Shown piece by piece: positions 8,004 through 55,937 of a stretch of 64,000 bases of DNA. This DNA is from Streptomyces sp. AP-93 (GTDB lineage Bacteria; Actinomycetota; Actinomycetes; Streptomycetales; Streptomycetaceae). Under the pieces are notes generated by a model. The model was not told where the DNA came from. It did no database searches and worked only from the letters and a program-made list of their open reading frames with translations. The position numbers were made by a program, and so were the translations under genes. Position 1 is the first letter of the stretch. Each line of letters begins with the position of its first letter. The stretch is taken from assembly GCF_022808175.1 (NCBI RefSeq), contig NZ_JALGBX010000006.1, positions 248,001 to 312,000 of the forward strand, written 5' to 3'.

Positions 8004-8411
8004 GTGAAGCTACGGTTCTTGGGTAAGAACTCAACTCCGGGCGACAGCCCAACGTTGTACGCCACGGACAGGGACAGCTACGTCGTGCAGGGCTGGAAGA
8101 TCTTCGCGAACGACCTGCTGATGCAGCTCGACGTGCCGCATGGGCACACGGCAGTCGAGGTTCCGACCGAGCTGTTCGAGCACCTGACCAAGGACGGTCT
8201 ACCGTCCGGGGAGATCAAGGATTTCTCGGCTCCGATCGTGATCCGCACCGGCGAGGGCACGTGCGTCGTGCAGGGCCCCGTGATGCGCGACCTGGAGGCC
8301 TTGAGTCAGATGCGGCTGCCCGACTACGAAGACTGCATCGAAGTCCCGCGATCCGCGATCTTGAACCTCCTGGAGGAGAAGAGTGGACCTGATCACCAGC
8401 GCCCAGCGTGA
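8004..8411 (+). CDS. Hypothetical protein of the DUF6879/XRE cassette
   Basis: 135 residues from GTG 8004. The N-terminus (MKLRFLGKNSTPGDSPTLYATDRDSYVVQGWKI) resembles a Streptomyces family that I associate with the gene before DUF6879 proteins in WhiJ-like regulatory clusters. No catalytic motif. It overlaps the DUF6879 gene by 29 bp. Confidence 0.7.
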   Translation: MKLRFLGKNSTPGDSPTLYATDRDSYVVQGWKIFANDLLMQLDVPHGHTAVEVPTELFEHLTKDGLPSGEIKDFSAPIVIRTGEGTCVVQGPVMRDLEALSQMRLPDYEDCIEVPRSAILNLLEEKSGPDHQRPA

Positions 8412-8907
8412 CGAGCTGTTCAACAGCTTCGAACGCGACGCCTTCCACCTGGAGCTGAGGGACGACTACGGCTCGCCCGTGGAAGACACGCCGTACGCGC
8501 GCTGGCAGCGAGGCGAACCCGACGACTTCGCGTGGCTCGGCCCGTGGCGAAAGCTGATGCGCCGCGCGACGGGCGAGGGCAAGACTGTACGCCGCGTCCG
8601 CGTCGTGACGGAGCCCCACTCCCAGTACGTCACGTGGGAGCACTCCAACACCGTGGAGAACCTCGCAGTTGGGGAGGACATCCGCTGGCTTCCGCGTCAC
8701 CAGATTCCCGAGGGAATCACGTTTCCTGTTGAGGGCAACGACTGGTGGCTCTACGACGACAAGCTCCTCGCGGTCGGGCACTTCGACAGCGAGGGCCGCG
8801 TTCTGGGATCCGAACTGATCACCGATCCGGTGATCGTGGCGGAGTGCGTCCATGTGCGCGACCTGCTCTGGGGGCTGGCTATTTCCCACGGTGAGTACAA
8901 GCCCTGA
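8383..8907 (+). CDS. DUF6879 family protein
   Basis: 174 residues from GTG 8383. FERDAFHLELRDDYG near the N-terminus, DFAWLGPWRKLMRRATGEGKTVRRVRVV, and a C-terminal WWLYDDKLLAVGHF are features of DUF6879, a family common in Streptomyces next to XRE/DUF397 pairs. Biochemical role unknown. It is followed 10 bp later by the XRE regulator. Confidence 0.75.
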   Translation: MDLITSAQRDELFNSFERDAFHLELRDDYGSPVEDTPYARWQRGEPDDFAWLGPWRKLMRRATGEGKTVRRVRVVTEPHSQYVTWEHSNTVENLAVGEDIRWLPRHQIPEGITFPVEGNDWWLYDDKLLAVGHFDSEGRVLGSELITDPVIVAECVHVRDLLWGLAISHGEYKP

Positions 8908-8917
8908 TCATCGGACT

Positions 8918-9763
8918 GTGAGTACCGAGGCGCAAGATCAACGAGAGGCGCTGGGCGCCCGACTGCGCGTGTTCCGCCGAAACGCGGGATACGCCAGCGG
9001 GCGTTCCTTCGCGGTGGCCGTGGGCTTCCACGAGTCCAAGGTCTCTCGGATCGAGCACGGCCGGCAGAAGCCGAGCGAGGACGACCTTCGAGACTGGTGT
9101 GAGGTCACGGGGCAGCAAGATCAGCTTCCGGACCTCGTTGCCGCGCTGCGGCACATAAACGAACTCTGGCTCGAATGGAAGCGCCAGCTTGCCGACGGGG
9201 CAACTTCAAGGCAGCAGAAGGCCATACCGGTTTACGCCAGGACCAAGCTGTTCAGGATCTGGCACCCCACCCTCATCTGGGGTGCCCTCCAAACTGCGGA
9301 CTACGCCGCAGAGACCTTCAAGCAGGTCGTCAGTTTCTACGACATCCCCGACGACATCGAGTCCGCCCGGGATAAGCGCCTGGAGCGGCAGAAGTACCTG
9401 TACGAGGGAGACCGGGCCTTCCACGTCCTCCTGGCAGAGCAGGCCCTATTCAGCAACTTCGGCGGTCGGAACGTGATGCTCGCACAGCTTGAGTGGCTGC
9501 TGAACGTCATGCGGCTACCCAGGCTCAGCCTGGGATTCGTCCCCCGAGATGCCCCGCTCTGGATCTGGCCCGGCAACTCGTTCTCGATGTTCGACGAGAA
9601 GCTGGTCCTGGTGGAGACGTACTCCGCGGAGCTCACCGTAACGAAGCCTTCGGAAATCGACACGTACGTCAAAGCCTTTGGGCTGCTCAAGCGGTCAGCG
9701 GTCTACGGCGACTCCGCCAAGGAGCTGATCCGTGGTGCCATCCGGCACTACGACCGGTACTGA
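8918..9763 (+). CDS. XRE-family regulator with DUF5753 (WhiJ-like)
   Basis: 281 residues from GTG 8918. The N-terminal helix-turn-helix spans residues ~10-65 (LGARLRVFRRNAGYASGRSFAVAVGFHESKVSRIEHGRQKPSED); the rest is DUF5753, with the ending FGLLKRSAVYGDSAKELIRGAI. In Streptomyces such proteins act with small DUF397 partners to control development. Here the set lies on a prophage, so it may control either prophage genes or the host. A DUF397 gene follows 14 bp later. Confidence 0.88.
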   Translation: MSTEAQDQREALGARLRVFRRNAGYASGRSFAVAVGFHESKVSRIEHGRQKPSEDDLRDWCEVTGQQDQLPDLVAALRHINELWLEWKRQLADGATSRQQKAIPVYARTKLFRIWHPTLIWGALQTADYAAETFKQVVSFYDIPDDIESARDKRLERQKYLYEGDRAFHVLLAEQALFSNFGGRNVMLAQLEWLLNVMRLPRLSLGFVPRDAPLWIWPGNSFSMFDEKLVLVETYSAELTVTKPSEIDTYVKAFGLLKRSAVYGDSAKELIRGAIRHYDRY

Positions 9764-9777
9764 CGAGGAAAGATGAA

Positions 9778-9966
9778 ATGACTCAACCTCTGAACTGGCG
9801 GACAAGCACCTACACGAGGACGGACAACTGCGTCGAGGTCGCGGACGACGTGCCCGAAGGCGTCATGGTGCGCGACAGCAAGTGTTGGGATCGCGGCACC
9901 ATGACGGTGGGCTCCTCCGCCTGGTCTTCGTTCGTCGACTACAGCAAGGTGTCGGACCGTTCCTAG
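9778..9966 (+). CDS. DUF397 domain protein
   Basis: 62 residues from ATG 9778. It has the family pattern: LNWRTSTYTRTDNCVEVAD, then GVMVRDSK and SSAWSSFVDYSK. DUF397 proteins are the partners of XRE-DUF5753 regulators. Gene order matches the usual pairing. Confidence 0.88.
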   Translation: MTQPLNWRTSTYTRTDNCVEVADDVPEGVMVRDSKCWDRGTMTVGSSAWSSFVDYSKVSDRS

Positions 9967-14851: not shown

Positions 14852-15289
14852 TCAGTCGAACGTGGGCGCTGCGGTCACCGCGGCTTCTACGGCCTTGTCG
14901 CGCTGCTCGGCGTACGCGATGACCTGGGTCCGGGTGGCCGGATCGTTGACCTGGCGCCAGACCCAAGCGGGATTGGCGCCGGGCTTCGTCGGCGGGATCT
15001 GGGCGACGGTGACGAGCACAGCGCTGCCGACCATCGTCTCCAGGTCACGAGCCAGGACCGTCTGTTCGATCCGCATCCCCTGCGAGACCTCGGGGGTCAG
15101 CGACGAGAGCTGCTCCGGGGTCCGGAAGATCGATACGGTGCAAAGAGCGCTGTCCTTGGGGCCGTTGGGCGTCGGCCGCTGCCGGTCCCACGCCGAGACT
15201 TCGACGAGGATGGCAGCGGCATCGACGGCCTCCTTCGGCTTGAACCAACCGCCGGCCTGCGTCGGGATGTTCTTCAGGTTCAGGGTCAC
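14852..15289 (-). CDS. Hypothetical phage protein, possibly single-strand DNA-binding-like
   Basis: 145 residues from GTG 15289, whose first base overlaps the TAG of the upstream small gene. Beta-rich: TLNLKNIPTQAGGWFKPKEAVDAAAILVEV, then CTVSIFRTPEQLSSL and GSAVLVTVAQIPPTKPGANPAWVW. The composition and position before the helicase suggest an SSB-like or DNA-binding role, but I cannot confirm a fold. Confidence 0.65.
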   Translation of the reverse strand: MTLNLKNIPTQAGGWFKPKEAVDAAAILVEVSAWDRQRPTPNGPKDSALCTVSIFRTPEQLSSLTPEVSQGMRIEQTVLARDLETMVGSAVLVTVAQIPPTKPGANPAWVWRQVNDPATRTQVIAYAEQRDKAVEAAVTAAPTFD

Positions 15290-15408
15290 TAGTGCTGATC
15301 TCCACTCTTTCGGTGAACGGGGTAGGGGGTGTGGGGGAGGCGTCGGGGCTTCAAGGGCCCGGCGGCGAGGACGACGGCGACAGCCGCGCCGAGCAGTCGA
15401 CGGCCCAT
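15289..15408 (-). CDS. Very small membrane or signal-like peptide
   Basis: 39 residues, MGRRLLGAAVAVVLAAGPLK then a basic Pro-rich tail. ATG 15408 overlaps the upstream TGA by one base and the TAG overlaps the next GTG by one base, so the frame exactly bridges two genes. It looks like an RR-type signal or short membrane segment. Support comes from spacing only. Confidence 0.45.
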   Translation of the reverse strand: MGRRLLGAAVAVVLAAGPLKPRRLPHTPYPVHRKSGDQH

Positions 15409-15842
15409 CACGACGCCTGAAGTGCTCGGCCGCGCGCCTTCCAGGCGTCCATGACAACCGGCTCCGCGAAGGCGGCCTGGTTGGCCGCCCAGAGGCGGCG
15501 CAGCTCATCAGCGGCCTGGCAGGCGGCGATCTGCTCCAGAACGGCGGAGGCCGGGCTACCGGTGGGGCCACCCTGCGGCGCGGGGGGCGCCGCTGTAGAC
15601 GCCTGCGGGACGACGTGGGCACCCAGGCCGGAGGTGATGGCCTCCGCGCTTCTGGCGAGCTGACTGACCTCGACGAGGATCTCGTGGAGAGTGAGAGAAG
15701 TTACACTCTTACTTTCGAGCCCAAAGAAGGAGCCGAGCTCGTCGCGAAGACCGCTCGCGGTGCCGCTGAAGACAACCTGCGGGGCGGTCCCGCCGTCCCC
15801 GCATGGGACTTTGATGGTGATTGACAGGGCCTCTTCGGGCAT
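15408..15842 (-). CDS. Hypothetical phage protein
   Basis: 144 residues from ATG 15842 (MPEEALSITIKV) with AGGGGAA just upstream; an ATG 15 bp earlier is less well placed. Beta-rich first half, Ala/Pro-rich linker, then a helical C-terminus (ADELRRLWAANQAAFAEPVVM). Not recognised. An exact copy of the repeated motif lies inside it at 15699-15712. Confidence 0.65.
   Translation of the reverse strand: MPEEALSITIKVPCGDGGTAPQVVFSGTASGLRDELGSFFGLESKSVTSLTLHEILVEVSQLARSAEAITSGLGAHVVPQASTAAPPAPQGGPTGSPASAVLEQIAACQAADELRRLWAANQAAFAEPVVMDAWKARGRALQAS
15699..15712 (-). promoter_or_regulatory. Repeated prophage motif, intragenic copy
   Basis: Minus strand GTAAGAGTGTAACT, identical over 14 bases to the copy at 44561-44574, although it lies in coding sequence (Lys-Ser-Val-Thr codons). 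Oriented with transcription. Confidence 0.5.
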
Positions 15843-15883
15843 CGCTGTTCCCCTCATGTGACGACCGGGCCTCCCCGGTGTGT

Positions 15884-15895
15884 AGTTACACTATA
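15884..15895 (-). promoter_or_regulatory. Repeated prophage motif before the 15842 gene
   Basis: Minus strand TATAGTGTAACT in the 53-bp gap between the exonuclease-like gene and the gene starting at 15842. Oriented with transcription; it could be an internal promoter or a repressor site. Confidence 0.5.
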
Positions 15896-16825
15896 TCAAA
15901 CGATTCGCTGGACTGAACTCTCGAACGCGGCGAGCGCCCCCCGAGTTGCGCGCATGCGCCGGATGTCACGTGCAAGGAGCGCGGCCTCCCACCCGATCCG
16001 CAGGTCCGCCCAGTACAGGGTGCACTGCGCCTCCCCTGCGGGCAGGTGGATGATCACGCCCCAGTCCCGGCATACCTCGGCTGCTTCGGCGTAGGCGGTC
16101 GCGGCCTCGTCGGCCGGCACGGAGGTCTTCCGCCACGCGGCCAGGGCCTTCTTATCGCGTCCGTCCACGGGGAAGCGGGTGTGGTCGTAGCGCTCGCCAT
16201 GGGCGTACACGGCGAGCTGGCTGGCCATTTTGAGGCCGCCGTACTGGACCGATCCCGTCTTCAGGTCTCCGATCAGCAGACCCTCGAAGTGTCGGCCGTC
16301 AGGCCCTGGGCCCGAGTAGCGCAGCAGGCGATCGAAGGTGCCGCCGACGCCGAGCTCGTCCACGACGACGAACCGCTCGATGGCCACGGTGTCGAAGCCG
16401 GCCATCGCCATCTTGTACGCGGCCATATCGGCCAGGTCGCGGTTGGACGTACCGAGAGGAAGGGGCTCCCCGCGGTCGACGGCCTCGGAGAGCGTGTGCA
16501 GGTGGGTTCCGTGCTCACGCTTCCTATTAGCTCCGGCGAGGCTCACGGCCCGCTCGGCAAGCTCGTCCAGCACCGCCTTGTCTTCCCGGCTCTCGGAGTT
16601 CAACTCTTTCACTCGCGCCACGAGAGCTGGGTCGCGGGACGCACCCACGAGAGTCATGCGGGACTTCCAGGCGGTCAGGGCCGTCTTGTCCTCGATGCAG
16701 TCGATGTACGTCGTCGTCCTCGTCAGCGGCTTGGGAGTCCCGCCGGTCTTGGGTACGACAAGAGGGCGCCCCCACCCGTCCCGAGGGACAGCGCGGGCCG
16801 GAAGGTCGGTCAGAGTCAGGGGCAA
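15896..16825 (-). CDS. PD-(D/E)xK exonuclease (RecB/Cas4-like)
   Basis: 309 residues from TTG 16825, with GGAG seven bases upstream; the frame has no stop further up, but this start follows the end of the previous gene. Motifs in order: GTHLHTLSEAVDRG, GGTFDRLLRYS, LLIGDLKTGS (the D...DxK core) and KMASQLAVYAHGE. This set is typical of phage RecB-like nucleases that resect DNA ends for recombination. Confidence 0.82.
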   Translation of the reverse strand: MPLTLTDLPARAVPRDGWGRPLVVPKTGGTPKPLTRTTTYIDCIEDKTALTAWKSRMTLVGASRDPALVARVKELNSESREDKAVLDELAERAVSLAGANRKREHGTHLHTLSEAVDRGEPLPLGTSNRDLADMAAYKMAMAGFDTVAIERFVVVDELGVGGTFDRLLRYSGPGPDGRHFEGLLIGDLKTGSVQYGGLKMASQLAVYAHGERYDHTRFPVDGRDKKALAAWRKTSVPADEAATAYAEAAEVCRDWGVIIHLPAGEAQCTLYWADLRIGWEAALLARDIRRMRATRGALAAFESSVQRIV

Positions 16826-16841
16826 ACTGGGCTCCAGGTGG

Positions 16842-17111
16842 TTATGCGGCGGTCTGTAGGTAGAGGCGTACGGAGTCGTCCGCGAGCAGGGTCGGCTCGC
16901 ATTCGTCCTGGTCAAGGAGCCCCAGGCCGCGTTGCTTGGCGGCCTGGAGGATGCGGCGCAGGTGGTCCGGAGCGTGACCAGGGCTGACCGTGATGTGGCA
17001 GTCCGACCGGTCCTCGGCGACGTGCAGGGCGACGCCCGGCAGGTACAGGACCTCGGCTCGCCTGATCGGCTCGGCTTCACACATGGAGACCGCCCCCTGG
17101 CCATGCATCAT
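16842..17111 (-). CDS. Small hypothetical protein, first gene of the replication operon
   Basis: 89 residues from ATG 17111 (GAGAGGAG upstream); an alternative ATG at 17084 is also plausible. SVRLYLQTAA at the C-terminus and VALHVAEDRSDCHITVSPGHAPDHLRRIL in the middle; no recognised domain. As the first gene of the leftward block it follows the palindromic control region. Confidence 0.6.
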   Translation of the reverse strand: MMHGQGAVSMCEAEPIRRAEVLYLPGVALHVAEDRSDCHITVSPGHAPDHLRRILQAAKQRGLGLLDQDECEPTLLADDSVRLYLQTAA

Positions 17112-17284
17112 CCGACGGCTCCTCTCCCCGTGCCGGCGCTTCCCCGCGCCAGCGGTCGAACGTTCGTGCGAGCCTAGATCCTGCCCGCAGGGCTACCCTC
17201 CGGTCAACCCTTGCAAACCCTACTGGACTCAGAGCTTCCGTTCGGAGTGATTTAGGCCCCTTTTCGGGAATTGAAATAACCTTT

Positions 17285-17303
17285 CATTTCGCCATGCGAA
17301 ATG
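17285..17303. promoter_or_regulatory. Operator-like palindrome 1
   Basis: CATTTCGC and GCGAAATG form perfect 8-bp arms around a CAT spacer. First of three copies of the pattern TTTCRC-N3-GYGAAA. Confidence 0.75.
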
Positions 17304-17311
17304 GGGCGGGT

Positions 17312-17334
17312 CTCGTTTCACGTGGTGAAACGAG
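17312..17334. promoter_or_regulatory. Operator-like palindrome 2
   Basis: CTCGTTTCAC and GTGAAACGAG form perfect 10-bp arms around a GTG spacer. The best of the three copies; centre 29 bp from palindrome 1. Confidence 0.78.
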
Positions 17335-17348
17335 GGGAGGCGTCGGCC

Positions 17349-17367
17349 CGTTTCGCCACGTGAAATG
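17349..17367. promoter_or_regulatory. Operator-like palindrome 3
   Basis: CGTTTCGC and GTGAAATG are imperfect arms around a CAC spacer, matching the same consensus. Centre 35 bp from palindrome 2 and about 75 bp before the oxidoreductase start. Confidence 0.7.
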
Positions 17368-17431
17368 ACGAGATGAATCCTTCGGGGGCCTCATAAAGTG
17401 GTGGATACACCTAACCGAGTGAAGGATCAAC

Positions 17432-18382
17432 ATGCGAGCGATTGTGATGACTCAGGCGGGCGGCCCGGAGGTGCTGCGGCAGATGGAGGTGCCAGACCCG
17501 AGAGCCATCGCGGGCCACCACGTGGTGACCGTCTCGCGGTCCGGGGTCAACTACGCAGACATCCACGTGCGGCAGGGGGACTACCTGGCGCAGGTCGAGT
17601 ACCCGATCATCCCGGGCAATGAAGTCATGGGAACCCTGCCCGACGGGCGCCGCGTCGTGGGCTTGTGTCAGGGGGGTGGGTATGCAGAGAAGGCGGTGGT
17701 GCGCCGCCTGCTGACCTGGGAGGTTCCGGACGACGTCAGCGACGATCAGGCCGTCGCCCTCACCCTCCAGGGCCAGTCCGCGTGGCACCTGCTGCACTCG
17801 GTGATCAGGATCACAAAGGGAGATTCGGTCCTGGTGCCGGCCGCCGCTGGCGGTGTCGGCTCCCTCGCGGTGCAGCTCGCCAAGCTTGCCGGAGCCCGTG
17901 TCGTCGCTCTGGCCGGAGGGCAGGACAAGGTCGAGCTCGTCCGAGGGCTGGGGGCAGACGTCGTCCTCGATTCCTCCCTGGACGGGGACCTCGCCGCCCG
18001 AATTCTCGAAGCCAACGAGGGGCCGGTGAGTGCCGCGCTGGAGATGACGGGAGGCTCCGTTTTCGACTCAACTCTCGCTGCCCTCGCCCCTCGTGGCCGG
18101 ATGGCCGTTTACGGATGCGTGTCCGGGGACCGTCGCTCACCGTCGATCACGGAGCTCATGCAGCAGTCGCAGTCGGTGTCGGGCTTTTGGCTTCCGAACC
18201 TGTACGGCGTTCGATACGCGTTGCGGGACTCCATGGCCGCCTTGTTCGAGGCCACGGCGCGCGGAGATCTGCGGCCTGTCATAGGTCCCTGCTACAACAG
18301 TGATGAGGCATCAAGGGCGCACGCGGACCTTGAGGCCCGACTGACCGTAGGCAAGGTAACGATCAAGCAAACCCGGCAGTAA
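17432..18382 (+). CDS. Quinone oxidoreductase-like MDR family protein
   Basis: 316 residues from ATG 17432 with GAAGGA six bases upstream. GroES-like N-terminal domain (SGVNYADIHVRQGDY) and a Rossmann domain with AAAGGVGSLAVQLAKLAGARVVALA; no structural or catalytic zinc cysteines, as in the NADPH:quinone reductase branch. It lies just after three palindromes and before an IclR-type regulator. This is not a standard phage gene; it could be cargo or part of a ligand-responsive switch (inference). Confidence 0.85.
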   Translation: MRAIVMTQAGGPEVLRQMEVPDPRAIAGHHVVTVSRSGVNYADIHVRQGDYLAQVEYPIIPGNEVMGTLPDGRRVVGLCQGGGYAEKAVVRRLLTWEVPDDVSDDQAVALTLQGQSAWHLLHSVIRITKGDSVLVPAAAGGVGSLAVQLAKLAGARVVALAGGQDKVELVRGLGADVVLDSSLDGDLAARILEANEGPVSAALEMTGGSVFDSTLAALAPRGRMAVYGCVSGDRRSPSITELMQQSQSVSGFWLPNLYGVRYALRDSMAALFEATARGDLRPVIGPCYNSDEASRAHADLEARLTVGKVTIKQTRQ

Positions 18383-18393
18383 CATCGATCTCT

Positions 18394-18422
18394 AAGCCCG
18401 CGCTCCGCAAAGGCGCTGGCTT
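18394..18422 (+). terminator. Weak terminator-like hairpin after the oxidoreductase
   Basis: AAGCCCGCGC (18394-18403) pairs with GCGCTGGCTT (18413-18422) with one mismatch, 12 bp after the oxidoreductase stop. No U tract, so read-through into the regulator gene is possible. Confidence 0.45.
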
Positions 18423-18485
18423 GGGACCACAGGTATTCGCGGCGTCGCCGGGGAAGGCGGCGCCGCGTTTTGTTCAGGGGAAGTA

Positions 18486-19286
18486 ATGACCACGGTCAAG
18501 GGCACGGCGCACGGTAAGCGAGTATTTCTAGTCCAGCGAGCTTTCGCTGACCTCGACGGGGACTGTCACGGGCCTGCGGCTATCGCCAAGGCGACCGGCC
18601 TCGACCGGGCAACCGTTTACCGAGTTCTTCAGGACGGACTCGCTGACGGAAATTTTGTCCAGGTGAAGGAAAACGGCCGTCAGCTCTACCGTCTTGGCCC
18701 CGGAGCGTTTCGACTCTCGATGCAAGCGCTTGCCCAGACCCCCGATGAAGAGATGACGCACGCCGTTCTCGACAAGCTCCAGCGCTCTACGGGCGGGCTG
18801 GTCGCCTACTACGCGGTTGTTGGAACCCGGCGCATCTGCACGGACTACGCGATCGGCGACTTCGACCCCAAGTCCATCGGCATCGACCCGTTCGAGCTGG
18901 TCAAGTACAGCAGGTCGCTCCGCACGGGTGCCAGTGGGCGTGTGATCCTGGCGCACATGCCGGCGCCGTTCCAGGAGAAGGTTCTCGCCGAGCAGGTACC
19001 GGAAGGTGTCGGCCCCGGCGTGATCCGCGACAACGACGTCCTCGTCGAATCGCTCAAGGACATCATCGACTCCGGATTCGCCATCGGGCGCCAGGAATGC
19101 ATGAGCGGCTGGGACTCCGTCGCAGTCCCCGTGATGTGGGACGAGACGATTCAGGGATCGCTCCTGCTGTGGATTCCCGCGCAAGAGATGCCCGAAGACA
19201 CGAGCGCGCTGGTCGCCGCAACGCTTATGGCCGGTGACATGCTCAGCCGGATCGCCTCGGCGCCCGGCAACGCCTCCGCGGCTTAG
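18486..19286 (+). CDS. IclR-family transcriptional regulator
   Basis: 266 residues. N-terminal winged helix-turn-helix (GPAAIAKATGLDRATVYRVL, residues ~32-51) and a C-terminal effector domain with the IclR-type YSRSLRTGASGRVILA and the ending GSLLLWIPAQEMPED...AATLMAGDMLSRI. IclR proteins bind small ligands and palindromic operators; the three palindromes at 17285-17367 are natural candidates. A strong terminator follows. Its role on a prophage (lysogeny control or control of the oxidoreductase) is inferred. Confidence 0.8.
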   Translation: MTTVKGTAHGKRVFLVQRAFADLDGDCHGPAAIAKATGLDRATVYRVLQDGLADGNFVQVKENGRQLYRLGPGAFRLSMQALAQTPDEEMTHAVLDKLQRSTGGLVAYYAVVGTRRICTDYAIGDFDPKSIGIDPFELVKYSRSLRTGASGRVILAHMPAPFQEKVLAEQVPEGVGPGVIRDNDVLVESLKDIIDSGFAIGRQECMSGWDSVAVPVMWDETIQGSLLLWIPAQEMPEDTSALVAATLMAGDMLSRIASAPGNASAA

Positions 19287-19300
19287 TCGGAAAACCAGAA

Positions 19301-19332
19301 CGGGCCACCCTCAGATTTCCTGGGGTGGCCCG
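19301..19332. terminator. Strong bidirectional terminator
   Basis: CGGGCCACCC (19301-19310) and GGGTGGCCCG (19323-19332) form a perfect 10-bp stem between two convergent genes; the rightward side continues into GGTTTTC. Confidence 0.85.
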
Positions 19333-19342
19333 TCGGCGGTTT

Positions 19343-19843
19343 TCAGATATCCGTACTGCTCGCGCTGTCCGAGCGGCGCGGCTTTGCGGGATCACCGCGC
19401 CTGATCTTCCGGACGATGTCCGCGTCGCCATCTTCCCGGGGCACGAGGAAGAATCCATCCTCGGTCGTAGGGTCGTAGTAGACGACAGCCGATTCCTCTT
19501 CGAGCGACTTCTTCCAGGATTCGAGGCGGTTGGCATCGGCTTCCGCTAGATTTTTAAGATTCGAGTCGCCGTTTGCAACGGCGCGACGCCGGGCCTCGAA
19601 GCGGAGCATCACCAGGTCGTAGGCCCACCGATGCTTCTCTTCAACCTGCCAGGGAATCAGGTCGTTATCGCGGGTGATGCGAAGTGGCAGGTCGTTGCGG
19701 TTGCGGTAGACCGCCCAATAGGTGGGGGTGGTGTCGATCCCGTACTTCTCTTTGTACGTCGCCACCATCCAGGCATACGACTTGCCTTCCTTGAGCCAGC
19801 GCTTCGCCTCGTCGTGGTTCTGGACTTTGCTCGCACGGCCCAT
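19343..19843 (-). CDS. Putative phage DNA-binding regulator (immunity repressor-like)
   Basis: 166 residues from ATG 19843 (MGRASKVQNHDEAKRWLKEG). Segments SYAWMVATYKEKYGI, ITRDNDLIPWQV and SAVVYYDPTTEDGFFLV match a family I recall from actinobacterial phages and prophages, sometimes annotated as repressors. The N-terminal half could be a helix-turn-helix. It is monocistronic and divergent from the gene at 19970, as expected for a regulator, but the function is not established by sequence alone. Confidence 0.65.
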   Translation of the reverse strand: MGRASKVQNHDEAKRWLKEGKSYAWMVATYKEKYGIDTTPTYWAVYRNRNDLPLRITRDNDLIPWQVEEKHRWAYDLVMLRFEARRRAVANGDSNLKNLAEADANRLESWKKSLEEESAVVYYDPTTEDGFFLVPREDGDADIVRKIRRGDPAKPRRSDSASSTDI

Positions 19844-19923
19844 GAGTCCACCCCTTCTGGTTTGATGGTTCTCTCGCAAGTGCATGGCCGTTGTTGCGGC
19901 AGCAGGCACGGCTCTACAGTGGC

Positions 19924-19937
19924 ATGTAATAGTTGGG
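19924..19937 (+). promoter_or_regulatory. Repeated prophage motif, divergent copy before 19970
   Basis: ATGTAATAGTTGGG lies 33 bp before the next gene in the divergent region. It is a weaker match to the repeated TGTAAGAGT motif and points with transcription. Confidence 0.35.
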
Positions 19938-19969
19938 CGAGTCAAGACGAACGAGGAGACGTAAGGGTT

Positions 19970-20266
19970 GTGCTGATCGAAGTAGAAGTTTGCGACGTCT
20001 GCCGACGGCCTGGCGTACCGGTCGTTAGTTACACCATTACGGAGCCTGGTAGCGGTCGCTCCGGTGCCACGGTCCGGTGCAGCGACGACGCCGCGCCCTT
20101 CGAGGATGTGCTCGGCCCGCGCATCGAGAGCGCAGCCCCCGCCGAGGTATCCAAGCCCCGGCCGGCAGCGAAGACCGCTGCAACCTCGGAGCCTCAGCGG
20201 CGACGAACCCGCAAGGTCACGACCGTCGCGGAGATCGAAGCCGCGAAGGCTGCGGGCAAGGCATAG
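19970..20266 (+). CDS. Small protein with Cys pair and basic tail
   Basis: 98 residues from GTG 19970. VEVCDVCRRPG...TVRCSDDAAPF could coordinate zinc, followed by a Pro/Ala linker and a basic C-terminus (SEPQRRRTRKVTTVAEIEAA). It may bind DNA. A perfect terminator follows. Not recognised. Confidence 0.6.
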   Translation: MLIEVEVCDVCRRPGVPVVSYTITEPGSGRSGATVRCSDDAAPFEDVLGPRIESAAPAEVSKPRPAAKTAATSEPQRRRTRKVTTVAEIEAAKAAGKA

Positions 20267-20277
20267 AGGCATGACGA

Positions 20278-20311
20278 AAGGCCCCCACCAGCGTTTGCCG
20301 GTGGGGGCCTT
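20278..20311. terminator. Strong bidirectional terminator at the end of the lysis/late operon
   Basis: AAGGCCCCCACC (20278-20289) and GGTGGGGGCCTT (20300-20311) form a perfect 12-bp stem between the plus-strand gene ending at 20266 and the minus-strand holin gene ending at 20317. Confidence 0.88.
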
Positions 20312-47088: not shown

Positions 47089-47634
47089 ATGGCCCCAACC
47101 CTGTCCATGACCGTCCAGCCGCGCGTCTGGATCTGCTGCCTGGCCTGCTACAACTCTGGCTTTTTGACTGGAGATTGGTACGACGCCGACACGGGCGACC
47201 TCGTCACCCCCGAAGACCTGCACGGCGGACCCACGGACCACGAGGAGCTGTGGGTGACGGACCACGATGAGTTCCACGGCGCCCTTGAGGGGGAGTGCTC
47301 CCCGGCACACGCCGCCGAGATAGCCGAAGCCCTCCAGGGCCTCACCCACGACGAGCTCGGCCCGTTCTCGGCCTGGGTCGCCGAGTGGGGCGACGACGTC
47401 GACAACGCCCACTGGGTCGACCGCTTCCGCAACGAGTACCGCGGATTTCACCAGTCCGAAGGGCACTACGCCCAGGAGTGGGCCGAGGACACCTCCAAGG
47501 ACGAGGACAAGGAGCGCATGACGCGCTGGCCGTGGAACTCGATCGACTGGGACCGCGCCGCCGAAGAGCTCTTCTCCAGTGGCCTGCACGCCGAGCCCGC
47601 GTACGGCGGCGTCTACGTCTTCAACCCGCGATGA
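47089..47634 (+). CDS. ardA: ArdA-like antirestriction protein
   Basis: 181 residues. RVWICCLACYNSGFLTGDWYDAD matches the ArdA N-terminal pattern (Y-N-x-G...G-x-W), the middle is acidic (AWVAEWGDDVDN), and the end RNEYRGFHQSEGHYAQEW...IDWDRAAEELF...GGVYVFN follows the ArdA C-terminal pattern. ArdA proteins are acidic DNA mimics that block type I restriction enzymes. Useful to a phage or conjugative element entering a new host. A methyltransferase in the same block adds to this counter-restriction set. Confidence 0.82.
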   Translation: MAPTLSMTVQPRVWICCLACYNSGFLTGDWYDADTGDLVTPEDLHGGPTDHEELWVTDHDEFHGALEGECSPAHAAEIAEALQGLTHDELGPFSAWVAEWGDDVDNAHWVDRFRNEYRGFHQSEGHYAQEWAEDTSKDEDKERMTRWPWNSIDWDRAAEELFSSGLHAEPAYGGVYVFNPR

Positions 47635-47738
47635 ACACCGAACCCTGCGTCGAGTGCCGAGCTGTGCCCGAGCTCCTCGACGAAGACCTCACCTGCACTT
47701 CTTGCCGCATCCGAATCCGATTGGAGACCACGAGATGA
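47631..47738 (+). CDS. Tiny zinc-ribbon peptide
   Basis: 35 residues: MNTEPCVECRAVPELLDEDL then CTSCRIRIRLETTR, two CxxC pairs. ATG overlaps the ardA TGA and its stop overlaps the next ATG by 4 bp, which supports translation. Confidence 0.62.
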   Translation: MNTEPCVECRAVPELLDEDLTCTSCRIRIRLETTR

Positions 47739-47971
47739 CGACCGTAGCCGAGCCCGAAATGGTCAACCTGACCGTCCGCTTCGAGGTCATCGAGACCACG
47801 ACCACCGACGTGGAGGCCAAAGTCGAGGTGCCCGCCGACATCGCCTACGACGACGAAGCCCTCCAGGACTGGCTTGACCAGAACGAGGGTGCCTGGATCG
47901 AGAAGCTCGATACGGACGACGCCCACGACATCACCCGCGACGTGACCGACGTGTACGGCACGGACCTGTGA
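47735..47971 (+). CDS. Small acidic protein
   Basis: 78 residues from ATG 47735. VNLTVRFEVIETTTTDVEAKVEVPADI then DEALQDWLDQNEG. It resembles the next protein in layout (beta strands, then DWxxxNE), suggesting a tandem duplication. Acidic; function unknown. Confidence 0.65.
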   Translation: MTTVAEPEMVNLTVRFEVIETTTTDVEAKVEVPADIAYDDEALQDWLDQNEGAWIEKLDTDDAHDITRDVTDVYGTDL

Positions 47972-48186
47972 AGAAGCTCGTGAAGTTCACCCTCGCCCGC
48001 ACCACCCACGGTGACGTCGAGCTGGAGATAGACGTCCCGAAGGAGTTCCTCGACGACGACGGCGCAGTCTTCGACGACGCCGGCCTGTGCGACTGGATCA
48101 ACGACAACGAGTCGGTGGACGAACTCGACCCTGTCTACGAGGAGATCCAGACCTCGGAAGTGGTGCGGCTCGTCCATGTCCACTGA
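47968..48186 (+). CDS. Small acidic protein, paralogue-like
   Basis: 72 residues from GTG 47968. KLVKFTLARTTHGDVELEIDVPKEFLDD then LCDWINDNESVDEL. Same pattern as its upstream neighbour. Coupled by a 4-bp overlap. Confidence 0.65.
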   Translation: MKKLVKFTLARTTHGDVELEIDVPKEFLDDDGAVFDDAGLCDWINDNESVDELDPVYEEIQTSEVVRLVHVH

Positions 48187-48472
48187 CCGCGACATCCGCA
48201 TGAGCGACCGGGTCAAGCACCTGGTCGGCGATCTCAACGAGGCCATCGAGACGATGCGCCAGGAGCCCGAGCCGGGCCGTACCTGGTCCTGGGAAGACGA
48301 GCACGTTGCCGGGCTGAACCTGGCCGACGTTGCCGAAGCGCTGATTCTCGCGCTCCCCACCGCCATCTGGCCGGCCGCCTGGTTCAAGGAACAGCCGAAG
48401 GCCGCGCGCGCCCCTCTGAGCGCCTACGAGCAGCAGCTCGTCACCGAGCTCATTACTCAGCTCGACCTCTGA
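48176..48472 (+). CDS. Small helical hypothetical protein
   Basis: 98 residues. VKHLVGDLNEAIETMRQEPE, then LNLADVAEALILALPTAIWPAAWF. Overlaps the previous gene by 11 bp. Not recognised. Confidence 0.6.
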   Translation: MSTDRDIRMSDRVKHLVGDLNEAIETMRQEPEPGRTWSWEDEHVAGLNLADVAEALILALPTAIWPAAWFKEQPKAARAPLSAYEQQLVTELITQLDL

Positions 48473-48489
48473 CCCCACACATCAAGTCA

Positions 48490-48527
48490 GCGCCCGCCCC
48501 GCGCGTCGAAGGACACGGGGCGGGCGC
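48490..48527 (+). terminator. GC-rich hairpin between genes (3 of 3)
   Basis: GCGCCCGCCCCG (48490-48501) pairs perfectly with CGGGGCGGGCGC (48516-48527), ending 16 bp before the next ATG. Confidence 0.65.
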
Positions 48528-48543
48528 CCGCCAAGGGACACCC

Positions 48544-48867
48544 ATGAGCACGATGACCTGCCGCGACTGCGGCATCGGCCCGTATGGGGCCCAGCCCTCC
48601 GGCCTCTTCCTCTGCGATCACTGCGGCCACCTCCTCGACCTCGACACGGCCTGGTTCGATCCCGCCGAAGTAGTCGTCGTGGACACGGACGGCACCCTGC
48701 TGCACTTCCTCAGCCCGCACGCATGCCTGTCCTGGATGGACGACATCCGCGACCTCCCCACGGGCGACTGGGCCCTCGCGATGGAGGCCCTCGGCCAGTT
48801 CAAGCGCGCGGCCAAGGAACTCGAAGCCGCCCTCCGTGCCGGCCTGCCCTACACCACCCCCGCCTGA
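48544..48867 (+). CDS. Zinc-ribbon-like small protein
   Basis: 107 residues. TCRDCGIGPYGAQPSGLFLCDHCGH is a CxxC...CxxC zinc ribbon; the C-terminal half is helical. Function unknown. Confidence 0.66.
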   Translation: MSTMTCRDCGIGPYGAQPSGLFLCDHCGHLLDLDTAWFDPAEVVVVDTDGTLLHFLSPHACLSWMDDIRDLPTGDWALAMEALGQFKRAAKELEAALRAGLPYTTPA

Positions 48868-48882
48868 CCGACGGAGACCTCC

Positions 48883-49419
48883 ATGACCCACCACGCCACG
48901 TACGCGTTCCCCGAGGGAGACCTCCACGTCACGGTCCTCCCAGCCAAGACGGCGGAGGAGACCTGGGGAAGCGAGCGGGTGCGCCCCGTGTACTCCCGCC
49001 TGGCCATCAGCTCCTCGACCGACGAGGACGAGCCCGGCTTCCTGAAGATCCGAGGCCGGTACTACCGCGTCGGGTCCAGGCGCATCCGATCCCTGGACCA
49101 GCAGGTCAGCAGGCTGGGCCGCTGGCGCTGGGACTCCCCGCGGTGCAGCAGCGGGCAGTACACCAACGCCGAGGGCAAGGAACTCGGCAGCAGTACGGCC
49201 GCAGACCGGCGCCTTGACCAGATGGTCGAGGAGGCTGCCGACCGGTTCGAGGCGCAGCATCCGCATTGGCGCCGGATCAGCGAGCGCCTGGAGCTCGAAG
49301 ACGACCTCCGCAACGCCGAGGCGCACCGCGGACAGGTCTGCGACGAGCTGCGCAAGGCCGACGCGAAGATCACAGACCTCCACGCCCGGATAGCCGCCTA
49401 CGCCGAGGGAACGCCGTGA
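48883..49419 (+). CDS. Hypothetical protein
   Basis: 178 residues. Beta-rich N-terminal half (YAFPEGDLHVTVLPAK, YSRLAISSSTDEDEPGFLKIRGRYYRVG) and a coiled-coil C-terminus (LRNAEAHRGQVCDELRKADAKI). Not recognised. Confidence 0.62.
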   Translation: MTHHATYAFPEGDLHVTVLPAKTAEETWGSERVRPVYSRLAISSSTDEDEPGFLKIRGRYYRVGSRRIRSLDQQVSRLGRWRWDSPRCSSGQYTNAEGKELGSSTAADRRLDQMVEEAADRFEAQHPHWRRISERLELEDDLRNAEAHRGQVCDELRKADAKITDLHARIAAYAEGTP

Positions 49420-49460
49420 TCACCCTCGCCCCATCCGTCAACGTCATGGGCGTGGCCTGA
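49416..49460 (+). CDS. 14-codon ORF bridging to the methyltransferase
   Basis: GTG 49416 overlaps the preceding TGA, and its own TGA overlaps the methyltransferase ATG by one base (VITLAPSVNVMGVA). It may be a leader for translational coupling rather than a functional peptide. Confidence 0.3.
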   Translation: MITLAPSVNVMGVA

Positions 49461-50752
49461 TGTCCCTGACCCGCCTCGACACCGCCGGAGCGCTTGGCGT
49501 CCCCGACGACCTGGACCTCTCCGGCAAGACGCCGGAAGAACTCGCGGAGATCGCCGCGCCTTGGCCCGTCCACTGGCTCTTCCCCCCGAAGCCAGGGGAC
49601 CCCGACCGAGTCGTCAATCTCTTCGCCGGACCTGGAGGCTGGGATGTCGGCGTACGGGACGTCCTGCGGCACGAACTCGACACCGTGGGCGTCGAGATGC
49701 ACAAGGGAGCTTCGGAAACCGCCTGCGCAGCAGGGTTCCGGCGCATCATCGCCGACGTCCGCTCCCTTGACCCGAAGCACCTGGCGCTGCGCTGGGTACG
49801 CGGGCTGATCGTCTCCGCGCCCTGCCAGTGCTGGTCACCGGCTGGCAAGCGCGCCGGACTCGACCCCCGCAATCAGGAACTGCTGCTCGACATCTTCACG
49901 GCGGCGTTCGAGGCCACCTTCGGCCACTGGCACGACAGCGCAGACTGCGACGCCTGCGAGGTGGAGGACATCTGCCTCATCTGCAACAACCCCGACTGGG
50001 ACGGCTACGCGGGGTTCACCGGCCCCCTGCTCACCCTGGACGAGGTCCGCGCCCCGATCGCCGACATGACGGACGAGCGAATCGGCCTTGTCGCCGAGGT
50101 GCTGATCTGGGCGCTCACCCTCACCGCCCAGTGGGACAACCTCCGTTGGCTGGCCATGGAGCAGAGCTCGGCCCTGCCCGAGCTCATCCTCGACGGACTG
50201 CGCGAAGAACTGTGGTCGGCGGACTGGTGCAGCGCCGAGTACCGCGTCCTCGACGCCGTGGACTACGGCCTCGCCTCCCGGCGCAAGCGCGTGTTCCTCA
50301 TGGCGGCCCGCCACGCCTACGTCGACATGGACGCCCTCACACCCAAGGCGCCCATGCCGACCACCACCGCCGCCCAGGCCCTCGGCTGGCCCGAAGGCAT
50401 CCGCGTCAATACGCGAGGGGTCCGGAAGACGGCGGGCGGGAACTGCTGGTCGGCGGACAAGCCCGCGACCGGCATCACCAGCAAGATCCGCGGCTGGTAC
50501 TGGGAGAACAACAGGGACAGGACGTTCAGCCTCGACGAGGCCGCGCTCTTGGTGGGCTTCCGCCCCGGCTACCCATGGACCGGCTCCCGGTCGAGCTGCA
50601 CGCAACAGATCGGCGACGTCGTCGCCCCACCGATGAGCGCCGTCGTCATCGGCAGCCTCCTCTCCCAGCACTGGGAGGACCACCTCCGCCGGTACCTCGC
50701 CGACATCTACACCCCCACCCCTGCCGAGCCCGTTCACGTGCTCGCCGCCTGA
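49460..50752 (+). CDS. DNA (cytosine-5) methyltransferase
   Basis: 430 residues. Motif I NLFAGPGGWD (53-62), motif IV with the catalytic cysteine APCQCWSPAGKR (Cys122), motif VI as MEQS instead of ENV, motif VIII YGLASRRKRVFL, and motif X GDVVAPPMS. A small Cys cluster (CDAC...CLIC, Cys163-Cys175) is inserted. No restriction endonuclease is nearby, so it is an orphan methylase likely used to protect phage DNA or to regulate. Confidence 0.87.
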   Translation: MSLTRLDTAGALGVPDDLDLSGKTPEELAEIAAPWPVHWLFPPKPGDPDRVVNLFAGPGGWDVGVRDVLRHELDTVGVEMHKGASETACAAGFRRIIADVRSLDPKHLALRWVRGLIVSAPCQCWSPAGKRAGLDPRNQELLLDIFTAAFEATFGHWHDSADCDACEVEDICLICNNPDWDGYAGFTGPLLTLDEVRAPIADMTDERIGLVAEVLIWALTLTAQWDNLRWLAMEQSSALPELILDGLREELWSADWCSAEYRVLDAVDYGLASRRKRVFLMAARHAYVDMDALTPKAPMPTTTAAQALGWPEGIRVNTRGVRKTAGGNCWSADKPATGITSKIRGWYWENNRDRTFSLDEAALLVGFRPGYPWTGSRSSCTQQIGDVVAPPMSAVVIGSLLSQHWEDHLRRYLADIYTPTPAEPVHVLAA

Positions 50753-54662: not shown

Positions 54663-55937
54663 GTGTCCAAGAGGGGTAACGGCCTGGGAGGTTCGCCGGT
54701 GGAGATACCGCGACGTGGCAGGTCAAACACTTGGGGCGTGCGGACGCCCCTTCACTACGACCCAACTCAGGGGAAGAAGGTGCGCTTCTGGATCGGGCGC
54801 GAGTATGCAACGAAAACGGAGGCCAGTCGAGCGCTTAGCAGATGGCTGACGGATCACGAGGCAGGGACTATCGCGCCACGGTCGGAAATGAAACTCGGCG
54901 AATGGATGGATAAGTGGTTCGTCAGCCATCGGGTTGAAGACACCACGCGCTCAGCGTACGAAACTAAGATCCGGTTGCACATAAAGCCGCACCTGGGGTC
55001 GAAGAAGCTCAAGGATGTCACCGATGACGACCTCGACGCCCTGTATCGGATGCTGGAGACGGCGCCGTGCCCCTCGAACAAGGGGAATCCGCTCGGCGCC
55101 AAGTCCGTTCGGCACGTCCACAACATCCTGTCGGGTGCGTTCGAGGCCGCGGTCACGAAGAAGCTGATCCCGGTCAATCCGGCGGCCACAGCCAATCCGC
55201 CCACCGTCCGGCAGATCAAGGCCCAGCAGCGCAGGTATGTGACGCTCGACGATGCCAGTTCGGCCCGGTTCCTTGAGGACATCTGGACCCGGTGTGGACA
55301 GCGAGGCTGCGGACCCCTGCACTTCTGCACCCGTGATGCACCCCTGTGGACGACGTACACGGCGACTGGTGTCCGGCGCAGCGAGGCTCTGGGGATGAAG
55401 TGGGACCTCGTCCACTGGGAAGACTGCGCCATCGAATTGGAATGGGTCGTAGTCGAGGTGGGCAACAAGAGCGTCCTGCGCCGCCTTACCAAGGACGGAG
55501 ACGACAACGCGATCATCTACGTCGACCAAGCGCTGATGGGGGTGCTCAAGGTGCAGCAGGAGCGCCAGGAGATGTGGAGGGAGAGGCTCGGCCCGCTGTG
55601 GGAAGACAACGACCTGATCTTCGCGCGGGACGGATACATGCTCTATAAGGGCGGGATCACGCCCGGCCGGGCACAGGACGCCGGCCAGGTCAGTGCCCGG
55701 TGGCGAAGCACCAGGCGGCGGCTGGATCTCCCCGAGAGGTTCCGTATCCACGACTGGCGGCACAGCAAGGTCACGAACGACCTGGAGGCGGGGGAGAACC
55801 CCGTGGAGGTTTCCGCGAACGTGAGGCATCACTCACCCGGCTACACGATGGCCCAGTACGGTAAGCGTCGAGTAGAGGGGGCGCGCAAGCTGGCCTCGGG
55901 GACGGCGCAGCGCATCGGTCTGGGACGGATCGGATGA
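54663..55937 (+). CDS. Tyrosine recombinase (phage integrase)
   Basis: 424 residues from GTG 54663. N-terminal AP2-like arm-binding region, core-binding SAM-like domain (TTRSAYETKIRLHIKPHLG), catalytic domain with Arg in TGVRRSEALG (238/239), HDWRH (His363, Arg366), His389/390 in NVRHHSPG and the nucleophile Tyr399 in MAQYGKRR. All catalytic residues are present. It probably recombines at the 28-bp core. It is the last prophage gene, 79 bp before attR. Confidence 0.95.
   Translation: MSKRGNGLGGSPVEIPRRGRSNTWGVRTPLHYDPTQGKKVRFWIGREYATKTEASRALSRWLTDHEAGTIAPRSEMKLGEWMDKWFVSHRVEDTTRSAYETKIRLHIKPHLGSKKLKDVTDDDLDALYRMLETAPCPSNKGNPLGAKSVRHVHNILSGAFEAAVTKKLIPVNPAATANPPTVRQIKAQQRRYVTLDDASSARFLEDIWTRCGQRGCGPLHFCTRDAPLWTTYTATGVRRSEALGMKWDLVHWEDCAIELEWVVVEVGNKSVLRRLTKDGDDNAIIYVDQALMGVLKVQQERQEMWRERLGPLWEDNDLIFARDGYMLYKGGITPGRAQDAGQVSARWRSTRRRLDLPERFRIHDWRHSKVTNDLEAGENPVEVSANVRHHSPGYTMAQYGKRRVEGARKLASGTAQRIGLGRIG

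Follow-up and report, generated by a model that had tools for sequence, protein, structure and literature searches.

Among regulators of the IclR family, the PcaR/PcaU/PobR group is known for activators. The operators of the group-1 IclR proteins are described by the consensus GKTYCRY-W3-4-RYGRAMC, and where such sites occur in tandem their spacing has a main peak at 18-22 bp, which is common and not required, with a weaker excess near three and four helical turns (PMC8222616). In S. coelicolor, the motif of NdgR is a 15-bp palindrome, [GT]T[CT]CAC-N3-[GC][TC]GGAC, and the protein is described as a global regulator with 19 loci in chromatin immunoprecipitation sequencing (ChIP-seq) and with ties to thiol oxidative stress (PMC4340878). 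Here, we have analysed 64,000 nucleotides from Streptomyces sp. AP-93 (contig NZ_JALGBX010000006.1, positions 248,001 to 312,000; the whole stretch is called the window), in which a prophage carries three palindromes of related form in front of two rightward genes, qor (17432-18382, plus strand) and iclR (18486-19286, plus strand). It is likely, from the comparison of related loci, that the palindromes serve as operators for a qor-iclR cargo unit under local regulation, and the IclR protein encoded next door very probably docks at them.

The three sites have the form TTTCRC-N3-GYGAAA. They are strandless dyads at 17287-17301 (O1, TTTCGCCATGCGAAA, TTTCGC-CAT-GCGAAA), 17316-17330 (O2, TTTCACGTGGTGAAA, TTTCAC-GTG-GTGAAA) and 17351-17365 (O3, promoter-proximal, TTTCGCCACGTGAAA, TTTCGC-CAC-GTGAAA), with centres at 17294, 17323 and 17358, and these centres lie 74-138 bp 5' of the qor start codon. 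Over 19 bp, with arms of 8 bases, 8/8 arm pairs match in O1 and in O2, and 6/8 in O3. The initial annotation of this DNA had reported three such sites, centre-to-centre spacings of 29 bp (O1-O2) and 35 bp (O2-O3), two perfect palindromes among them, and as neighbours a leftward replication operon, a quinone oxidoreductase gene and an IclR-type regulator; all of this was reproduced. It had also called the sites phased, which is true of the outer pair O1-O3 (64 bp, or 6.1 turns at 10.5 bp per turn) but not of the neighbouring sites, which are 2.8 and 3.3 turns apart. All three sites fit the inner part of the group-1 consensus, TYCRY-N3-RYGRA. O2 carries the outer G on each of its arms, O3 on a single arm and O1 on neither, which fits the WTT-11-AAW subgroup; the central triplets CAT, GTG and CAC are not wholly A/T, unlike the W3-4 of the consensus.

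The three palindromes are not a product of chance. They are the sole exact matches to the pattern in the assembly of 9,384,889 bases, where the reversed pattern used as a control has 0 matches, and in 100 dinucleotide shuffles of the window exact matches had a mean of 0.00 and a maximum of 0. When one mismatch was tolerated, the whole assembly gave 16 sites and the reversed pattern 2, and the 13 extra sites were spread over 12 other contigs with no clustering. When two mismatches were tolerated, the window gave 4 sites against 3.7 expected, so that the signal resides in the exact, clustered sites.

That the palindromes belong to the qor-iclR pair came from the comparison of related loci. Relatives of IclR were sought in viral contigs (5 found, at 57-81% identity), in 392 genomes of the genus (E≤1e-20 was reached in 46, the window's own genome among them), in one genome each of 84,980 species (74 loci) and in plasmids (8 of 200 records inspected). 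We compared 79 loci, namely the 74 from the species collection together with L003, L008, L010, L011 and L012, and in 54 of them qor lies directly 5' of iclR. A dyad fitting the expression [TC]TCRY-N3-RYGA[GA] was present within 350 bp of qor in 46 of these 54 pair loci, with 81 sites, one overlapping and chance-looking match each in L010 and L074 included, against a shuffle mean of 1.36 and a maximum of 5. Arrays of two to four sites recur in the bacterial loci. The 25 loci without qor were scanned over 2.5 kb 5' of iclR, keeping dyads with at least 6 arm pairs, and 3 of them had some dyad, 637 to 1008 bp away; the scans of loci with and without qor differed in length and filter. In plasmids, qor adjoins iclR in 5 of the 8 inspected records, and 4 of these 5 have dyads within 600 bp, one of them three. 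The exact dyad was absent from all 18 related loci that lack the module, which comprise phages Omar and Salutena, 5 viral contigs (one of which may be the same phage as Salutena) and 11 genome loci found through the phage repressor and spanning ~1.5 kb on either side of it. A scan of viral contigs for tandem dyads returned 18 contigs (L013-L030), none with a match to qor or iclR at E≤1e-5.

The window holds a prophage related to Arquatrovirinae phages, and 172 phage records, all of Streptomyces, match 15000-20300. The module occurs in two phage types: the Arquatrovirinae-like type (the window, L008, L010, L011, L072 and L073) and L012, which is a phage by its terminase, portal and exonuclease profiles and has no match to the exonuclease or repressor of the window. 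As L008 is identical to L009 in sequence, and L010 to L074 over the 3 kb compared, there are seven distinct modules. The repressor of the prophage is found at 14 places in 13 of the 392 genomes, and the module at 3 of these 14; in phages Omar and Salutena the flanking genes are present without qor-iclR. In the ratio of nonsynonymous to synonymous substitution rates (dN/dS) over seven phage pairs per gene, with L012 unpaired, iclR ranges from 0.03 to 0.15 and qor from 0.07 to 0.15; some of the dS values exceed 1 and are rough. These ratios indicate that both genes are under purifying selection in the phages. Distances for iclR and for qor are correlated over the 54 loci (r=0.956).

The initial annotation had proposed IclR operator sites and control of cargo, a reading that is supported by the related dyads kept 5' of qor-iclR. 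It had named the absence of palindromes beside close homologues as the observation that would speak against it; all 8 phage or prophage rows, 7 of them distinct, have related dyads 5' of the pair, and so do 38 of the 46 bacterial pair loci. Its remark that such a regulator is unusual for a phage is borne out within the collections searched, where 50,697 phage records contained no relative of IclR at E≤1e-5 and related viral contigs with IclR number five, two of them identical over the compared stretch. Its other proposal, a lysogeny switch, is not supported, as the phage has its own repressor gene (phrog_3929), the 18 module-free loci have no exact dyad, and the array keeps its distance to the predicted qor -10 but not to the early promoter.

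The regulator itself is a member of the IclR family, with an N-terminal winged helix-turn-helix and a C-terminal effector domain. Its 266 residues narrowly pass two Pfam cut-offs, HTH_IclR with 23.7 bits (cut-off 22) and IclR_C with 26.3 bits (cut-off 24). Its profile finds 15 PDB sequences at E≤0.01, the best of which is an IclR regulator. The structural model (mean predicted local distance difference test score 86.2, predicted template modelling score 0.68) matches IclR structures with a best E of 1.8e-16; the whole-chain template modelling score is ~0.5-0.6 with a root-mean-square deviation of ~10 Å, which is probably due to domain orientation. The half-sites of phage and bacterial copies differ, being TTTCRC in the former and TCTCRC in the latter. 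The recognition helix begins with Ala-Thr in all 7 loci with the strict phage-type half-site and with Asp-Ser in all 37 with the strict bacterial-type one; 10 of the 54 loci match neither strict form. This match between helix and operator is suggestive of binding by IclR and does not prove it.

To which promoter the array belongs is indicated by its geometry. Each of the 46 dyad-bearing loci has a single TANNNT 3' of the last dyad. In the window, locus comparison predicts the -10 of the qor promoter as TAAAGT at 17394-17399 (plus strand), 36 bp from the centre of O3 and with no recognisable -35. A second search near the start codon, in which dyads were ignored, returned the same hexamers. The centre of the proximal dyad is 36-37 bp from the predicted qor -10 in 7 of 8 phage rows, and in the eighth, L012, the distance is 37 bp if a weak site missed by the strict expression is counted. 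The outer dyads of the phage loci are 64-67 bp apart, or 68 bp in L012 with the weak site, and the middle site is present in L003, L072 and L073; neighbours in three- and four-site bacterial arrays are separated by steps of 28-34 bp. The leftward phage early promoter, predicted from conservation as TTGACC-18-CAGGAT at 17178-17207 (minus strand), is outside the array. Three phage loci have their first dyad 87 bp from this promoter, and another three have it at 51-52 bp; in the window, the centre of O1 is 87 bp from the start of its -35. As the distance to the qor -10 is kept in the phages and that to the early promoter is not, the array probably serves qor and not lysogeny.

We propose that the array, qor and iclR could form a self-contained cargo unit, or moron, in a Streptomyces prophage. 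Dimers of IclR would bind the dyads, with O3 centred ~48-49 bp 5' of the predicted transcription start of qor, just above the would-be -35 box, and binding could be cooperative at the outer dyads, which in phages are 64-68 bp apart. IclR would more likely activate qor, and probably itself too, than repress it. The compound that Qor reduces would be quinone-like or enone-like, and perhaps identical with the signal or related to it. For the direction of control the balance tips only slightly towards activation of qor. At spacings of 15-19, the best match to a -35 is at most 3/6 in 53 of the 54 loci and 4 in L140, and the lack of a visible -35 box weakly favours activation.

Several observations weigh against this interpretation. 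Many Streptomyces promoters have no -35 box, so that activation is only favoured. A consensus scan found no sigma-70-type promoter within 16800-20000, and both the qor promoter and the leftward early promoter are thus drawn from locus comparison only. The first search for a -10 was confined to the region 3' of the last dyad, which builds non-overlap into its result. The spacing between dyad and predicted -10 is fixed in the phages only: in the bacterial loci (n=38), the last dyad is 111 bp from the -10 in 19, 51-59 bp in 14, 86 bp in 3, 95 bp in 1 and 119 bp in 1. The dyad expression was composed after some of the loci had been seen, and many loci are close relatives, so that the counts are not independent events. 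By this expression 8 of the 54 pair loci have no dyad. Four of these (L089, L101, L105 and L119) have a damaged dyad by eye, and in the other four (L080, L082, L084 and L140) no version of it was seen by eye. L080, L082 and L084 are Kitasatospora-type loci of a group neighbouring the phage clade, in which qor adjoins iclR, the helix has Ala-Thr and no dyad is recognisable. In plasmids, locus L177 has the qor-iclR pair and no dyad. Moreover, the phage IclR proteins fall into a single clade (supported at 100/99 and present in 100% of 200 bootstrap trees), so that the match between helix and operator amounts to a single correlated change on the tree.

The strongest competitor, less probable than activation and still to be taken seriously, keeps the same array and the same IclR protein and has IclR repress qor-iclR until the binding of an aromatic or quinone ligand releases it. 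A dual role is described for NdgR (PMC4340878), and the predicted -10 is more than 80 bp from the dyad in 24 of 38 bacterial loci, which is far for a simple activator. However, no dyad covers the -10 that was found independently of the dyads, the nearest centre being 36-37 bp 5' of it in phages (7 of 8 rows) and at least 51 bp in bacterial loci. The poor -35 matches also speak against repression, as does the closest NCBIfam model of IclR, which is that of the activator group PcaR/PcaU/PobR, though the match is far under the cut-off.

A lysogeny or early-operon switch, in which IclR would act on the leftward phage promoter and couple induction to a metabolite, is improbable. Its appeal lies in position. 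The array is flanked by the predicted early promoter of the leftward operon and by the gene for the phage's own immunity repressor (phrog_3929; 19343-19840, minus strand), which is outside the qor-iclR module. The module lies between the same phage genes in the Arquatrovirinae-like L008-L011 and L072-L074, and in the second phage type, L012, it adjoins a leftward exonuclease gene. Nevertheless, the array keeps a constant distance to the qor -10 and a varying one to the early promoter (87 vs 51-52 bp), the repressor occurs without the module in related phages, and related arrays precede qor in bacterial loci and plasmids. Among the 74 genome loci, where the phage genes sought were the exonuclease, the repressor and the first early gene of the window, only L072-L074 match any of the three. 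In an immunity switch of the L5 type, the operators are bound by the immunity repressor of the phage; here the repressor has a separate gene, and the absence of the exact dyad from the 18 loci of relatives argues against such a switch. Some other phage function, such as replication iterons, or binding by a host protein is most improbable and was not favoured: the dyads do adjoin the replication operon, but they travel with qor-iclR over phages, plasmids and bacterial contigs and not with replication genes, the 18 module-free loci have no exact dyad, and the assembly has no other exact site.

The operator array of a qor-iclR cargo unit remains our preferred explanation. Qor, of 316 residues, is a full-length protein of the MDR superfamily in which the MDR domains are present. 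All 25 aligned proteins keep the nucleotide-binding motif A-[AG]-x-G-G-[VL]-G, which reads AAAGGVGS in the window. Among PDB sequences, Qor best matches 4rvs, a probable quinone reductase, and the nearest NCBIfam model is PIG3-type (TIGR02824; E 3.8e-52), where 177.3 bits fall below the cut-off of 296.8. Qor is predicted to be a quinone-oxidoreductase-like enzyme that falls outside the PIG3 subfamily as defined by that model. In IclR, Cys118 is kept in 78 of 79 aligned relatives and Cys205 in 76 of 79, and an electrophile or redox signal may act on the regulator. It is conceivable, if rather unlikely, that the cassette is a phage-borne sense-and-respond device. IclR, perhaps via C118 and C205, would detect quinone-type or electrophilic compounds of the host or its rivals and switch on a reductase that disarms them, which would benefit the lysogen or phage replication, and the operator code (TTTCRC vs TCTCRC) would avoid cross-talk with bacterial copies. 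Anthracyclines, which have been described as anti-phage compounds of Streptomyces, could be an example, a link to the cassette that is speculation.

The order of genes around the array is the leftward early operon, the three palindromes, qor and iclR, a hairpin and the immunity-repressor gene. The leftward early operon begins with a phrog_5250-like gene (16842-17111, minus strand), and includes an exonuclease (phrog_466) and a helicase (phrog_243). Just 3' of the leftward early promoter, at 17155-17180, a TCGAAC...CG-type sequence, similar by eye in six phage loci, is a candidate site for the repressor that the phage itself encodes. In the gap that separates iclR from the convergent repressor gene, sequence and fold point to a GC-rich hairpin at 19300-19333 (strandless), a possible two-way terminator. 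It was absent from the output of the terminator scan, which requires a run of T straight after the stem. Between qor and iclR, at 18438-18467, there is a terminator-like stem of 12 pairs with a T tail; a look-alike is present in L072 and L073 and none was seen in L008, L010 and L011. The stem may leave iclR partly uncoupled from qor, and we give it no weight, the shuffles having a mean of 2.2 such stems. Farther away, on the left side of the prophage, DUF6879, HTH-DUF5753 and DUF397 genes, of phage or host, lie in succession (8383-9966), and the rightward part of the prophage has matches to an anti-restriction protein (phrog_2059) and a DNA methyltransferase (phrog_116) at 47089-50752. A tyrosine-type integrase gene lies at 54663-55937 and is followed by host-like genes (a sigma-70-family factor and methylmalonyl-CoA mutase).

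Relatives of the pair have neighbours of their own. In four of the five plasmid qor-iclR loci (L177, L178, L183 and L184), a divergent pair is found across the operator region, in which a DUF6545-type protein is partnered by a protein related to the ImmA/IrrE-type metallopeptidase of L177. Relatives of both are also present in the genome contig L142, and L180 has a DUF6545 gene with a different small neighbour. This arrangement may be a larger conserved system. In L077, L083, L109 and L125, relatives of one XRE-like regulator gene, labelled from its sequence and having a GAYLWEL motif, lie 5' of qor on the same strand.

A dedicated IclR protein with a conserved operator array, under purifying selection in temperate Streptomyces phages, would give an actual example of a gene that a phage carries under the control of a small molecule. 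Operator code and helix residues are shifted in the related two-gene units of bacterial contigs and plasmids, and these units could offer a compact system for studying regulator specificity in phage versus bacterial copies. If the ligand is a quinone-type antibiotic, prophages would be linked to the chemical anti-phage defence of Streptomyces.

We found no publication on this cassette by title and the start of the abstract, in a coverage that leaves out most subscription journals. The locus resembles the group-1 systems of PMC8222616 in its half-site [GW]TTYCRY, its 3-bp spacer, its palindromic form, the several sites per promoter and the position of the regulator beside its target. It departs from them in being carried by a phage and in having sites 29 and 35 bp apart, outside their main peak; the main text of that paper contains none of the words 'phage', 'quinone' and 'COG0604'. 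With NdgR, as portrayed in PMC4340878, it shares a Streptomyces IclR protein and a palindrome of the same architecture, but whereas NdgR has its 19 ChIP-seq loci, the sole exact sites here are the three at one promoter. PcaR/PcaU/PobR (TIGR02431) is the best NCBIfam model for IclR (E 2.5e-15), yet its 56.5 bits are far under the cut-off of 284.75, which places the protein outside that group as modelled. Similarly, the PIG3-type NAD(P)H quinone oxidoreductases match Qor over its full length and under the family cut-off. The term 'IclR' is absent from the main texts of PMC11302927, on the Samy prophage, and PMC10023795, on actinobacterial prophages. As for prophage morons, the cassette is like them in its own predicted promoter, the hairpin after its last gene, its place between phage transcription units and its absence from most related phages seen. 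The position between phage units and the absence from Omar, Salutena and 16 further repressor loci are observed, and the promoter and the terminator are predicted and were not found by the consensus scan. What sets it apart from prophage morons is that it has its own dedicated IclR regulator and an operator array.
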